Assembly (NCBI GenBank): GCA_029960905.1
Contig: JASBVU010000003.1
Location: 1 to 18,510 of the forward strand
Direction: 5' to 3'
Length of the DNA stretch: 18,510 bases
DNA from: Thermoanaerobacterium sp.
GTDB lineage: Bacteria > Bacillota > Thermoanaerobacteria > Thermoanaerobacterales > Thermoanaerobacteraceae
Shown here in pieces: positions 6,820 to 10,614 of this stretch. Below the pieces are notes generated by a model that saw only the letters and a program-made list of their open reading frames with translations, was not told the DNA's origin and made no database searches. The position numbers were made by a program, and so were the translations under genes. Each line of letters starts with the position of its first letter. The first letter of the stretch is position 1.

Positions 6820-8175
6820 TTATTGTGCATTTGAACTGCTCATAAGTTTTACTTTTGTACTGAGTGTCCTGCCATTTCTCCAGAATGTAACAGTTATAGT
6901 ATCGCCAACTTTATGCTTAGCTATTATGCTTTGCAGCGAATCAAAAGTCTCAACTTTCGTACCATCTACTGCTGTTATCACATCACCTGCTTGAAGTCCA
7001 GCTTCATCTGCACCACTTCCTTGTTGTACTTGTGCAATATAGAGTCCCACTGGTATATTGTACTGTGCAGCATCCTGTTGTGTGACTTCCTGTACACTTA
7101 CACCCATCATTGGTCTTTCTACATATCCGTGTTTTATCAAGTCGTCTATTATAGGTTTTGCTTCATTTATTGGGATGGCAAATCCCATTCCCTCAACAGG
7201 TGTGCTTTGACTTTGAAACATTCCAAACGGGTCTTGAGTATCTGAACCACCTGTAGATGTCAACTTCACACTTGTTATTCCGACAACCTCACCATTGCTG
7301 TTGACTAAAGGCCCACCGCTGTTGCCAGGATTTATAGCTGCGTCTGTCTGAATAAGGTTAACTGGGCCATAATCGCTTTGAAGATTTCTGTTAAGACCGC
7401 TTATTATTCCTGCTGTAACCGTACCTGCAAAACTTTCTCCAAGCGGGTTTCCTATTGCAACTGCCAGATCTCCAACTTCAAGCTTTGAGGAATCGCCTAA
7501 TTTTGCTGGAATCAAATTTGTAGCATTAATCTTCAATACTGCCAAATCCGTCTTTGAATCTTTGCCTATAAGCTGTGCTGGAAACTTCCTGCCGTCAGAT
7601 AAATTTACCGTTATCTTAGAAGCGCCATCCACAACGTGGTTGTTTGTCACGATATAACCTTGGGAATCGATGATTATGCCTGAACCACTGCCTTCAGGCA
7701 CCAGTGCGCTTCCAAATCCATTTGTGTATGAGACGCTTGTATCAATTCCGACTACGGAAGGACTTACAATCTTAGCTATATTGGCAATCAAGTTAAAATT
7801 GCTATTGTCTGATGATGAAAGCGGCAAATACCTATTTATAACCTGCGTCTGCTGACCTAAATTAGTGTATTTCATGATTCCTGCGACAGTTCCACCACCG
7901 ATAAGTGCTGCAATTAGTGCAACAGCCACAAATGAAACCAACATCCTTCTTCTGAATCTTTTTACCATCTTGCCTAAGCTTTTTTTGTTGCTTCTAAATT
8001 CTACTCTTGATGTCGTATAGGTTCCACTTTCCTCAGCATTATATGTTGCTTTAATCTCTTGAGTGTCATTTAGATTTTCGCCTTTTATGTCATCAGAACC
8101 TAAGGCATCGTCAGTCTTGAAATTATCTATTTCATTTTCGCCTATATTTTTGTTTTGTTCATTTTCAAAATCCAT
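6820..8175 (-). CDS. htrA: HtrA/DegP-type membrane-anchored serine protease
   Basis: HtrA degrades or refolds misfolded exported proteins at the outer face of the membrane. Residues 1-75 are a charged cytoplasmic tail, about 78-100 one transmembrane helix, then a trypsin-like domain with the triad His180 (VTNNHVV), Asp210 (KTDLAVLKI) and Ser286 (INPGNSGGPL), and one C-terminal PDZ domain (about 350-440, including GSGADEAGLQAGDVI). Length is 451 residues from the ATG at 8175. AAGGAGG lies nine bases before that ATG; two nearer in-frame ATGs are 0 and 3 bases from it, and a farther one precedes it, so they are less likely. The gene has its own promoter carrying a box shared with the intergenic small-RNA candidate, and it follows a two-component system, as expected for a CssRS-like envelope-stress response. 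Confidence 0.95.
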   Translation of the reverse strand: MDFENEQNKNIGENEIDNFKTDDALGSDDIKGENLNDTQEIKATYNAEESGTYTTSRVEFRSNKKSLGKMVKRFRRRMLVSFVAVALIAALIGGGTVAGIMKYTNLGQQTQVINRYLPLSSSDNSNFNLIANIAKIVSPSVVGIDTSVSYTNGFGSALVPEGSGSGIIIDSQGYIVTNNHVVDGASKITVNLSDGRKFPAQLIGKDSKTDLAVLKINATNLIPAKLGDSSKLEVGDLAVAIGNPLGESFAGTVTAGIISGLNRNLQSDYGPVNLIQTDAAINPGNSGGPLVNSNGEVVGITSVKLTSTGGSDTQDPFGMFQSQSTPVEGMGFAIPINEAKPIIDDLIKHGYVERPMMGVSVQEVTQQDAAQYNIPVGLYIAQVQQGSGADEAGLQAGDVITAVDGTKVETFDSLQSIIAKHKVGDTITVTFWRNGRTLSTKVKLMSSSNAQ

Positions 8176-8209
8176 ATTCATCATCCTCCTTATCATCTCT
8201 CATGATTAC

Positions 8210-8252
8210 ATTATAAATTAGAATTTTTAATAAACTGTGAACATATTGTAAA
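8210..8252 (-). promoter_or_regulatory. htrA promoter with regulator box (copy 1)
   Basis: On the minus strand the box TTTACAATATGTTCA (8238-8252) is followed after exactly 22 bases by a perfect TATAAT (8210-8215). No good TTGACA exists at the normal distance, so the promoter probably needs an activator bound next to the -35 region. The leader is about 28 bases and contains the AGGAGG. The same layout recurs at 8363-8405. The likely activator is the adjacent OmpR-type regulator, by inference. Confidence 0.68.
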
Positions 8253-8279: not shown

Positions 8280-8316
8280 GAAAAATAAATGCAGCCCGAG
8301 GGGTGGCTCGAGCTGC
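8280..8316 (-). terminator. Intrinsic terminator between the histidine kinase gene and htrA
   Basis: A GC-rich hairpin has arms at 8291-8300 and 8307-8316, with a single mismatch, and on the minus strand it is followed by ATTTATTTTT. It would end both readthrough from the two-component operon and the short transcript starting near 8356. The loop on the minus strand is CCACCC. The htrA promoter begins just downstream. Confidence 0.8.
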
Positions 8317-8356
8317 TATAATAAGGGAGGTCAAGGAGAGGCTTTTCTCTCTCTCG
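8280..8356 (-). ncRNA. Candidate small RNA upstream of htrA
   Basis: A predicted transcript of about 75 bases runs from seven bases after the TATAAT at 8363-8368 to the terminator at 8280-8316. It has no ATG. Its only TTG lacks a ribosome site, and that frame runs on through the terminator. The 5' part can fold as GAGAG / CTCTC. Next comes a single-stranded stretch with ACCTCCCTT (CCTCCC at 8325-8330), complementary to Shine-Dalgarno sequences, then the terminator hairpin. This order (hairpin, C-rich seed, terminator) resembles known firmicute C-rich regulatory RNAs such as RoxS/RsaE. Its promoter carries the same box and spacing as that of htrA. Alternatively, it may be only an attenuated leader remnant. 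No target is identified. Confidence 0.5.
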
Positions 8357-8362
8357 ATTATT

Positions 8363-8405
8363 ATTATAACCTTAATTTATGAATAAAGTATGAACAAATT
8401 GTAAA
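8363..8405 (-). promoter_or_regulatory. Promoter of the small-RNA candidate with regulator box (copy 2)
   Basis: On the minus strand TTTACAATTTGTTCA (8391-8405) differs from the htrA box at one of 15 positions and lies exactly 22 bases from a perfect TATAAT (8363-8368). A TTTATT also recurs at the same place in both spacers. The box begins 10 bases after the stop codon of the histidine kinase gene. Because the kinase gene ends here and a terminator follows about 50 bases on, the promoter makes sense only for a short transcript. Confidence 0.62.
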
Positions 8406-8414
8406 AATTTTATT

Positions 8415-9836
8415 TTACTGCTTAACTTTTTTTGACTTAAGTGTAAAAGTAAATGTAGTACCATCTACATCGCTACTTGTAGCCCATATATCCTCATTGT
8501 GAAGATTTATGATGCTTCTTACTATATAAAGCCCTAATCCGACGCCAGGACTACCACTTCTGGCTTTGTCAACTTTGTAAAACCTGTCCCATATATGGTC
8601 AATTTCATCAGGCGGTATCGTCTTACCTTTATTTTGGACTTTTACATAAATCTTTTCTTTTGCCTTTTCTGTAGATATGTGTATATAACCACCGGGATTT
8701 GAAAATTTAATTGCATTATCTATCAAATTAGTAAGCACCTGTTCTATCTTGTCTTTATCTGCCTCTACAATTTCTTTGTCGCTTTCAAAGTCTACCTTAA
8801 CCATCAGATCCTTATCGTTTATCCTTGCTTCCATCTTTATTATAGTCAGCCTTATAAGCTCGTTTATGTCAAATTCGGATATGTTTAGCGGAAAAGCCCC
8901 TGACTCCATCTTTGTTATATCTAAAAGTTCAGATATTAATCGGGACATTCGCCTCGTTTCTTTTTGAGCTATCTCCAAATAAAATTTTGATTTCTCCGCA
9001 GGTATAGTTCCATCCACGACGCCATCTATATAGCCTTGGATCGTGGACAAAGGCGATCGAAGCTCATGTGAAACATTAGCCACAAACTCTTTCCTTGCAT
9101 TATCCATCCTGCCCAATTCGCTTGACATTATATTGAAAGACTTCGCCAAATCTCCTATTTCATCGTCATCTACAACGTTTATCTTTGTTGAAAAATCGCC
9201 TTTTGCCATTCTTTCTGTTGCAATGCTCATCTCTTTTAAAGGATTAGAGATTCTCTTTGATGTATAAGAAATAAGTATAAATGCTATTATTATGGATATA
9301 GATATGGCCAAAAGCATTATAAAAAATATGTCCATCAATGTTTTCTGCATCTCTACTATAGGTGCATGCATGAATATGGCACCTTGAATCTTTCCAGCCA
9401 GTACAAGTGGAAAGCCAACAGTCAAAACAGGCTGCGTAAACCTGCCACCGAAATATCCTCTTCTTACAATTGTCTCACCTTTTAAAATGCTTTTGATGTC
9501 ATCTTTACTTAGCGTGACGCCTGTCCAATTCTTTTCAAAGTTTTTCGACTGTATATATATGCGTCCATCTGTACTTACAACCCAAATTGATGCATTTATA
9601 AGTCTGTCGATGACATTTAAATCTTGATTAAGCCTATCTATGTCTATGTCCCCTATGAGGTAATCGTTCAAGACGGTATTTATCTGCTTACCTTCTTCTA
9701 CCATTATCTTTTCTTTATCGCGAAAATAGTAATTCTCAAACATGATGTAGAAAAGCACAGAAAGTATCGACATTGTAAGCAGTATTATTGCAATGTTTGT
9801 GAAAAGCAGCCTTCTAAAGAGCCTATTTCTGCTCAA
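8415..9836 (-). CDS. Sensor histidine kinase of an OmpR-type two-component system
   Basis: The protein has 473 residues. It has transmembrane helices at about 11-33 and 167-191 flanking an extracellular sensor region of about 130 residues. A HAMP domain follows (about 192-245, with ISNPLKEMS), then a dimerisation domain with phospho-accepting His257 (VANVSHELRSPLSTIQGY), and an ATPase domain with the N box NLIDNAIKFS and the G box GSPGVGLGLYIV. It would autophosphorylate on a membrane or envelope signal and pass phosphate to the regulator encoded just upstream. The start is TTG, one base after the regulator's stop, with GAGGTG seven bases before it. The position next to htrA suggests a CssS-like role in sensing secretion stress; the sensor region itself does not prove this. 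Confidence 0.95.
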   Translation of the reverse strand: MSRNRLFRRLLFTNIAIILLTMSILSVLFYIMFENYYFRDKEKIMVEEGKQINTVLNDYLIGDIDIDRLNQDLNVIDRLINASIWVVSTDGRIYIQSKNFEKNWTGVTLSKDDIKSILKGETIVRRGYFGGRFTQPVLTVGFPLVLAGKIQGAIFMHAPIVEMQKTLMDIFFIMLLAISISIIIAFILISYTSKRISNPLKEMSIATERMAKGDFSTKINVVDDDEIGDLAKSFNIMSSELGRMDNARKEFVANVSHELRSPLSTIQGYIDGVVDGTIPAEKSKFYLEIAQKETRRMSRLISELLDITKMESGAFPLNISEFDINELIRLTIIKMEARINDKDLMVKVDFESDKEIVEADKDKIEQVLTNLIDNAIKFSNPGGYIHISTEKAKEKIYVKVQNKGKTIPPDEIDHIWDRFYKVDKARSGSPGVGLGLYIVRSIINLHNEDIWATSSDVDGTTFTFTLKSKKVKQ

Positions 9837-9837
9837 A

Positions 9838-10521
9838 TTATTTCACCTCGAATTTATATCCCACACCCCATACAGTTGTTAATTTCCAGTTTGGACCATC
9901 CCCTATTTTTTCCCTCAAACGTTTTATGTGTACATCGACGGTTCGGCTGTCCCCCATGTATTCGTATCCCCATACGTTTTCTAACAATTGGTCTCTTGTA
10001 AACACTTTATTTGGATGAGTACACAAAAAGTAAAAAAGCTCCAATTCCTTCGGTGTAAGGTCCACATTTTCACCTTTGTATCTCACTTTGTACTCGCTTA
10101 AGCTTATAGAGAGATCAGGATATGTCACACTGTCACTGTCATTTTCCTCATGTTCATACCTTCTCAACACAGCCTTGACACGAGCAACTAATTCTTTCCC
10201 ATCAAAAGGCTTAACGATGTAATCGTCAGCGCCTATCTCCAGACCCAATACCTTGTCAAAAGTATCGCCTTTGGCTGTAAGCATTATAATAGGCACATTT
10301 GTGAATTTCCTTACCTCTTTGCACAATGTCATTCCATCAATGCCGGGAAGCATCAAATCAAGTATAATAAGCAAGGGGAGTTCTTCTTTTATTTTGTTCA
10401 ATGCCGTAAGCCCGTCACTGATCTTAACTGTTGCAAAGCCTTCCTTTTCAAGATAAAGTGAAATTATCTCACATATATTTCTATCATCATCAACTATATA
10501 TATTTTTTTGTTTTCACCCAT
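9838..10521 (-). CDS. OmpR/PhoB-family response regulator
   Basis: The protein has 227 residues. The receiver domain shows the acidic pocket DDD at 11-13, the phospho-acceptor Asp55 (LIILDLMLPG), Thr82 and Lys104 (IVKPFDG). The C-terminal winged helix includes LTPKELELFYFLCTHPNKVFTRDQLLENVWGYEY split over two helices and SRTVDVHIKRLREKIG. The ATG at 10521 is preceded by AAGGGGTG; a start at 10590 would add 23 residues not typical of the family. It forms a two-gene operon with the kinase. The paired boxes beside htrA are the obvious candidate binding sites, since OmpR-type regulators bind direct half-sites next to the -35 region. No copy of that box is visible ahead of this gene, so autoregulation is not supported. 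Confidence 0.95.
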   Translation of the reverse strand: MGENKKIYIVDDDRNICEIISLYLEKEGFATVKISDGLTALNKIKEELPLLIILDLMLPGIDGMTLCKEVRKFTNVPIIMLTAKGDTFDKVLGLEIGADDYIVKPFDGKELVARVKAVLRRYEHEENDSDSVTYPDLSISLSEYKVRYKGENVDLTPKELELFYFLCTHPNKVFTRDQLLENVWGYEYMGDSRTVDVHIKRLREKIGDGPNWKLTTVWGVGYKFEVK

Positions 10522-10546
10522 ACAAACACCCCTTCTTTTTAAGACT

Positions 10547-10575
10547 ATTATACATAATTGATTTAAAAACCGCAA
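10547..10575 (-). promoter_or_regulatory. Sigma-A promoter of the two-component operon
   Basis: On the minus strand TTGCGG (10570-10575), a 17-base spacer and TATAAT (10547-10552) precede the regulator gene by about 26 bases. Together with the prs terminator upstream, this separates the two-component genes from the glmU-prs operon. Confidence 0.65.
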
Positions 10576-10589
10576 TGATGGATTGTACA

Positions 10590-10614
10590 TATAAAAAAAG
10601 GCACCTTAGTGCCT
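10590..10614 (-). terminator. Intrinsic terminator of the glmU-prs operon, overlapping the prs stop
   Basis: The stem AGGCAC/GTGCCT (10600-10605 and 10609-10614, loop of three bases) is followed on the minus strand by seven T residues. Two bases of the prs TAG (10613-10615) lie in the stem. Confidence 0.85.

Follow-up and report, generated by a model that had tools for sequence, protein, structure and literature searches.

A conserved candidate small RNA gene with an anti-Shine-Dalgarno-like core between a sensor kinase gene and htrA in one family of thermophilic bacteria

The DNA analyzed here (the window) is a stretch of 18,510 nucleotides from Thermoanaerobacterium sp. On its minus strand, a response regulator gene, a sensor kinase gene, a small RNA (sRNA) unit and htrA follow one another (Table 1), and the order kinase-sRNA-htrA was found in all 20 host-family genomes searched. 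The best PDB sequence match of the response regulator was MtrA (2gwr), and the best NCBIfam profile for the sensor kinase was WalK, whose score of 319 bits falls short of the cut-off of 725. The gene for the protease HtrA, which combines a trypsin-like domain with a PDZ domain, looks likelier to start at the ATG at 8175, which follows AAGGAGG, than at the listed position 8196 upstream of this apparent ribosome site. In one family member (G019; L057/L045), stop codons split the kinase gene, yet the sRNA and both promoters are present.

Table 1. Features of the kinase-sRNA-htrA locus, in window coordinates.
Feature	Position	Strand	Basis or remark
OmpR/PhoB-type response regulator gene	9838..10590	-	Pfam Response_reg and Trans_reg_C (receiver and winged-helix output)
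Sensor histidine kinase gene	8415..9836	-	Pfam HAMP, HisKA, HATPase
Putative binding site of the response regulator at the sRNA promoter, TTTACA-n5-TTCATA-n5-TTCATA, 11-bp pitch	8378..8405	-	Sequence; like design at other copies and at htrA
-10 element TATAAT of the sRNA, 9 bp after the third repeat	8363..8368	-	Sequence
Candidate small RNA gene, ~76 nt	8281..8356	-	Predicted from sequence; start placed from the -10 element, end at the U tract
5' hairpin formed between a purine-rich arm and CUCUC and CUUG	8332..8356	-	Predicted, not in every copy
Core CUCUCCUUGACCUCCCUU with two C-rich anti-Shine-Dalgarno-like blocks	8323..8340	-	18/18 columns invariant in 20 genomes
Seed ACCUCCCUU, open in the fold	8323..8331	-	Sequence and predicted fold
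Intrinsic terminator	8281..8316	-	10-bp stem 8316-8291, loop CCACCC, U tract 8290-8281
Three-repeat site of the htrA promoter (TTTACA, TTCACA, TTAAAA)	8225..8252	-	Sequence
-10 element of the htrA promoter	8210..8215	-	Sequence
htrA (trypsin-like domain and PDZ)	6820..8196 (listed ORF)	-	Pfam

An initial annotation of this DNA had proposed a unit of about 75 bases with its own promoter and terminator and without a credible reading frame. Such a unit lies on the minus strand at about 8356-8281 and recurs in 20 of 20 family genomes, and no reading frame is common to all copies, which show length differences of 2 and 4 nt. The minimum free energy of the segment 8356-8280 was -28.8 kcal/mol, compared with -15.3 ± 3.1 kcal/mol for dinucleotide shuffles (z = -4.3); in this fold the terminator stem is followed by AUUUAUUUUU, and the terminator was also picked up by a consensus scan. 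The core carries the blocks CUCUCC and ACCUCCCUU and is a longer conserved unit than the seed initially singled out, and the predicted folds leave an anti-Shine-Dalgarno (anti-SD) stretch unpaired before the terminator. The open C-rich seed and the CCACCC terminator loop of the fold first drawn were recovered, but its 5' hairpin is not general, being predicted in six of nine sequences folded singly (it is absent in L019, L051 and L053) and missing from the RNAalifold consensus.

Rfam contains models for LhrC and for RsaE. Searches of Rfam at gathering and permissive thresholds gave no credible match, the lowest E value being 0.68 (CyaR, at 18.1 bits where 47 would be required), which agrees with the earlier designation of the sRNA as possibly undescribed; RsaE was not among the six weak matches up to E 10. 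With its own predicted promoter, no open reading frame, a terminator and conservation as RNA, the unit qualifies as a candidate intrinsically terminated sRNA gene.

To describe conservation along the locus, nucleotide identities were compared between genus 1 (nine genomes) and genus 3 (ten genomes). The core was 100% identical, and all 18 of its columns are invariant at the locus in the 20 genomes. Identity amounted to 84% from the repeats to the -10 element of the sRNA and 76% in the sRNA 5' arm. Lower values were obtained for the htrA box (69%), the 3' portion of the kinase coding DNA (about 62%), the stem-loop of the terminator (about 60%) and the htrA gene start (41%), and the spacer that separates the terminator from the htrA box was 51% identical, with a range of 21-51% between genera. 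An alignment (A1) comprised 17 of the 18 distinct sequences; L015 was left out of it, identical sequences were collapsed and the third, more divergent copy of G005 is absent. In the terminator, 97% of cells are paired, against 36-49% in slid controls, and two-sided compensating changes occur in 5 of 10 pairs, with 19 such cells compared with 7.6 ± 2.3 in shuffled alignments; the number of further pair types (10 versus 11.2 in shuffles) was not in excess. The 5' hairpin, whose register varies, pairs in 83% of cells of the register counted and shows zero two-sided changes. The covariance test suggested at the outset was borne out for the terminator pairs but not for the 5' hairpin, and codon-like conservation, which had been named as a sign against an RNA, was not seen in that no frame is shared. 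It appears that the sequence of the core and the ability to terminate are under stronger selection than the 5' structure.

When 41 genomes were searched with a 221-bp query, 24 of them gave a match to the region at E ≤ 0.01, comprising 20 family members at E ≤ 9.9e-22 and four others with weak matches (4e-5 to 0.0035). A covariance model built from 17 sequences recovered the sRNA in all 20 family genomes (E ≤ 2.8e-19) and gave no match in four other genomes of the order except a weak one in G020 (E 0.0072), which reads like coding DNA and was rejected as a homologue. When 398 genomes of the phylum were searched with this model under stricter filters, by which weak matches may be lost, seven family members and three weak matches (E 3e-5 to 9e-4) were obtained; one of the latter is a gene-end terminator and two are C-rich stretches near terminators, and all three were rejected as homologues and are taken as chance or convergence. 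Across the order and the 398 phylum genomes, no convincing homologue was found outside the host family. The 18-mer core occurs at 15 loci in named genomes, eight of them in the host family, in records that include Thermoanaerobacterium saccharolyticum and Thermoanaerobacter wiegelii, and seven in unrelated taxa, a number that we estimate to be close to chance expectation. Among the matches listed, the open-licence literature held no description of such an RNA in the host genera. The candidate sRNA gene is conserved, apparently undescribed and, within the genomes searched, confined to one thermophile family.

The promoter of the sRNA contains three hexamers (TTnAyA) at 8405, 8394 and 8383, and the htrA promoter (8252-8210) is built likewise of three hexamers, a gap of 9 bp and TATAAT. 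The sRNA promoter was not among the predictions of a generic sigma-70 scan. Using a 24-position consensus derived from the window's own sRNA site, we obtained scores of 20-24 at the sRNA and 21-23 at htrA in 20 of 20 family loci; the score of 24/24 at the window's sRNA is uninformative, because the consensus was taken from that very site. As a yardstick, two sites reached a score of 20 in a related-genome sample of 798,320 positions; one of these reached 21, and no site scored 22. The co-control with htrA that had been proposed initially thus holds at the level of promoter design, and the two-component system probably commands htrA.

The repeat/-10 pattern was then searched genome-wide. With up to two mismatches, 64 sites were found in the nine genomes of the genus, compared with one for the reversed pattern, and eight of them lie in the window's genome. 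Sites with zero or one mismatch precede the sRNA, a second sRNA, htrA, a second HtrA gene and an ABC-transporter ATPase gene there, while two-mismatch sites belong to a gene for a protein of about 219 amino acids (with a signal-like start, judged by eye, and no clear family), to a purple-acid-phosphatase-like gene and to one place without a clear gene. The second HtrA paralogue (L113:1044-2288, plus strand) is 76% identical over 402 amino acids to the HtrA of the window and has the same promoter design. Since the purple-acid-phosphatase-like gene has a two-mismatch site, other regulators may read such repeats, and related regulators of the same type may read similar ones. The gene set with repeat promoters fits envelope or secretion stress, a putative signal suggested by htrA and the genes that have this promoter design in common with it.

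Besides the copy at the locus, the sRNA is found elsewhere in the genus. Two to three copies are present in five of the nine genus genomes, while the other four, and all 11 family members outside the genus, have one strong copy. Second copies with an identical core lie in G000, G002, G003 and G007 upstream of a gene for a MacA-like adaptor, an assignment based on a domain search with the G000 protein alone; this gene has its own weaker repeat promoter of similar build, recognized by eye and outside the set of sites with up to two mismatches. G005 has two extra copies in tandem, separated by about 1.1 kb, with one and two changes in the core. The extra copies carry a like promoter, core and terminator.

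A related element was noticed after the gene for the ~219-amino-acid protein, which is probably secreted, in the same four of nine genomes that have the MacA-linked copies (L051:100-200, minus strand; L263-L266), where ACCTCCCTATA and an sRNA-like terminator stand in the 3' UTR. This element may give rise to a third C-rich RNA, born from a 3' UTR. In G006, the corresponding place after the gene holds a zero-mismatch three-repeat promoter and a weaker C-rich stretch.

The seed ACCUCCCUU equals ACCUCCUU of the presumed 16S tail plus one extra C. The sequence TGGATCACCTCCTT occurs at 3-5 sites each in five of the nine genus genomes, sites that would be 16S ends; the remaining four genomes, of which one is a single contig, gave no match. 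The anti-SD-like core agrees with the type of C-rich seed put forward at the start. Pairing of the core was computed on a sample of 368 script-called genes from 400 kb, the starts of which were chosen by SD strength. The mean energy at gene starts was -12.9 kcal/mol compared with -8.7 kcal/mol within genes, and 30 shuffled cores (applied to every second gene) paired more weakly at starts than the true core (-11.4 ± 0.6 kcal/mol). As the starts were picked by SD strength, these energies speak for pairing with ribosome sites at large but go no further, and they would be accounted for by a generic complementarity to SD sequences.

No preference for particular targets emerged. Pairing energies of 98 membrane or secreted-like genes did not differ from those of 270 other genes (p = 0.29), although SD strength itself, at the script-called starts, was higher in membrane-like genes (p = 0.0007). 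A search for the core complement with up to three mismatches in 21 genomes returned 58 matches, of which 19 are sRNA genes; the 39 others are not in excess over the 53 obtained with the reversed pattern. In the contexts of 20 of these 39, the matches lie mostly inside genes and in a few cases near starts (L192, L199/L200 and L202, L199 and L200 being the same site in two genomes of genus 3), and no match seen was common throughout the genus. The patterns AAGGGAGGT and CAAGGAGAG followed by ATG occurred 38 and 27 times in the nine genus genomes versus 27 and 20 times for the reversed patterns, a mild excess in counts that include overlapping matches twice. Recurrent matches at ribosome sites concerned a short holin-like peptide gene (six of nine genomes), a TIGR04086-like membrane protein gene and an acyltransferase-like gene (five of nine each; names assigned by eye); we do not claim them as targets. 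Seven starts of regulon members or neighbours ranked at percentiles 0.19-0.88 of the sample, so that regulon members escaping repression were not apparent. Searches with the core complement and with ribosome-site patterns thus revealed no conserved specific target in the genus genomes. The earlier suggestion that the RNA lowers the synthesis of exported proteins in particular is not supported by these data.

CpxQ, MicA and RybB are enteric envelope-stress sRNAs with different regulators and seeds, CpxQ being cut from a 3' UTR. The present RNA would resemble them as the sRNA arm of an envelope-stress regulon, with the stress deduced here from gene content, and differs from CpxQ in having its own predicted promoter. 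Judged by analogy of design, the csRNAs of the CiaRH system and LhrC of the LisRK system are closer parallels than CpxQ or MicA/RybB. RoxS uses a C-rich UCCC motif in target binding, RoxS/RsaE and FsrA are under other regulators, and the hosts of the csRNAs, the streptococci, belong to a bacterial class different from that of the present host. According to PMC4132741, RsaE and FsrA also employ a C-rich UCCC motif to bind their targets. The likeness of the present RNA to RoxS/RsaE and FsrA is confined to this short motif, and no Rfam family was matched at its threshold; the RoxS/RsaE-class identity considered initially is not supported.

The csRNAs of Streptococcus, as outlined in PMC3091779 and PMC8186281, are small, exist in several copies and are transcribed under CiaRH from promoters with the direct repeat TTTAAG-N5-TTTAAG, in a regulon that includes htrA; of 61 predicted csRNAs, 32 have two stem-loops and 16 a terminator only. 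The present RNA shares with csRNAs so described two-component control through a repeat of 11-bp pitch (presumed here from sequence), a promoter design in common with htrA, several copies, small size, an unpaired anti-SD stretch before the terminator, and one or two stem-loops. It differs from them in its repeats, which are TTTACA-N5-TTCATA-N5-TTCATA and number three rather than two, and in the absence of a CAU anti-start-codon 5' of the seed within the invariant core; in several genus-3 copies a CAU lies two bases 3' of the seed, where it would face upstream of the SD. Because it has neither the CiaR repeat nor the anti-start-codon placement, we do not class it as a csRNA. LhrC1-5 of Listeria monocytogenes, as described in PMC4132741, require LisRK, are induced by cell-envelope stress and bind lapB mRNA through redundant CU-rich (UCCC) sites. 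The present RNA recalls LhrC in its redundant C-rich sites, in the two or three copies of some genus genomes and in its link, presumed from the promoter, to a two-component system. The numbers differ, however: LhrC has five copies and three CU-rich sites, some of them in loops, whereas the C-rich blocks here number two and the copies per genome one to three. The present RNA looks to work like csRNAs and LhrC, a likeness of design that need not mean homology.

Building on the observed anatomy, conservation, copies and common promoter design, we infer the transcription, regulator binding, base-pairing and targets of the RNA as follows. Activation of the kinase, with envelope or secretion stress as the putative signal, would lead the response regulator to bind the three 11-bp-spaced repeats and to activate the sRNA alongside htrA, each from a promoter of its own. 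The RNA of about 76 nt would end at its own terminator and display the C-rich core with its two anti-SD-like blocks, which would base-pair with the ribosome sites of several mRNAs and reduce translation while HtrA clears damaged exported protein; the extra copies elsewhere would raise the dose. Taken as a whole, we consider it likely that a two-component-controlled sRNA, switched on alongside htrA, represses translation in this manner. A wider reading, to which we give a low though appreciable probability, is that a network of C-rich RNAs (the sRNA, its dispersed copies and the 3' UTR element) under one envelope two-component system acts in these thermophiles not on a few selected mRNAs but broadly, slowing translation initiation to an extent set by RNA dose. 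On that reading, the two invariant anti-SD blocks resemble the 16S tail, and the 3' UTR element has its own promoter in one species.

The main rival to a base-pairing sRNA is that the RNA acts chiefly by sequestering a protein, as a sponge does, or by imitating the 16S tail at the ribosome. Invariance over 18 nt with two C-rich blocks exceeds the need of a short seed, the seed departs from the presumed 16S tail by a single C, and the pattern searches found no conserved specific target, all of which speak for it; against it, the core has no GGA motif, and a C-rich sRNA of similar build binds an mRNA in Listeria, as reported in PMC4132741. We regard this rival as unlikely. The RNA could also be a short peptide gene, since in many copies a frame of about 18 codons, starting at a TTG within the core, runs to where the aligned stretch ends. 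However, the frame sequence varies between copies, the TTG is CTG in L052, the frame lacks a ribosome site before it and the copies show length differences of 2 and 4 nt, and we find a peptide gene hardly credible.

Two further explanations start from the position of the unit between its neighbours. It lies on the same strand directly upstream of htrA and ends in a terminator, as would a terminated leader, or attenuator, in which read-through sets htrA expression. Yet htrA has its own promoter of like design after the terminator at 20 of 20 loci, and identity between genera in the spacer from the terminator to that promoter is only 21-51%. The existence of dispersed copies moreover makes it unlikely that the unit serves as an htrA leader, and these copies, as judged by eye, either precede no gene with such a promoter (G005) or precede the MacA-like gene with its own weaker repeat promoter; altogether, we hold attenuation to be quite improbable. 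Toward the other side, the kinase ORF ends at 8415 and the repeats start at 8405, about 10 bp on, with no terminator in between, so that the sRNA terminator would serve the kinase operon too, and 3' UTR processing may be a second source of the RNA. That the unit is nothing but a terminator of the kinase operon, with the RNA a 3' UTR by-product, nevertheless seems very unlikely to us, as a plain terminator would retain neither an invariant 18-nt stretch upstream nor a promoter under regulation, and it would not recur at dispersed places together with promoter and core.

If the preferred reading, a two-component-controlled sRNA pairing at ribosome sites, is true, a further bacterial group besides the streptococci and Listeria couples an htrA-linked two-component system with a multicopy anti-SD sRNA. 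This would suggest convergence on, or deep ancestry of, a circuit design that joins a protease to a translational brake, and the invariant 18-nt core makes target experiments straightforward.

Some loci outside the host family were also read. In family f4 of the same class (L047-L050), at four of four loci examined by eye, a promoter with repeats and an HtrA-like gene come directly after a kinase homologue, leaving no room for an sRNA, as in a circuit without the RNA arm. In G038, from another family (L042), the first ~130 bases after the stop of a kinase homologue hold, by eye, a three-repeat promoter (TTAACA/TTCATA/GTCATA) with TATAAT 9 bp on; an unrelated stretch of about 80 nt with a strong terminator comes after it and is possibly an unrelated sRNA in the same place. 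Around the center of L260, in the distant genome G126, CACCTCCTTTCCTCCTTTTTGATAGCGCCC...GGGCGC-ATTTTT forms an anti-SD-rich stretch before a terminator and perhaps represents an independent anti-SD sRNA.
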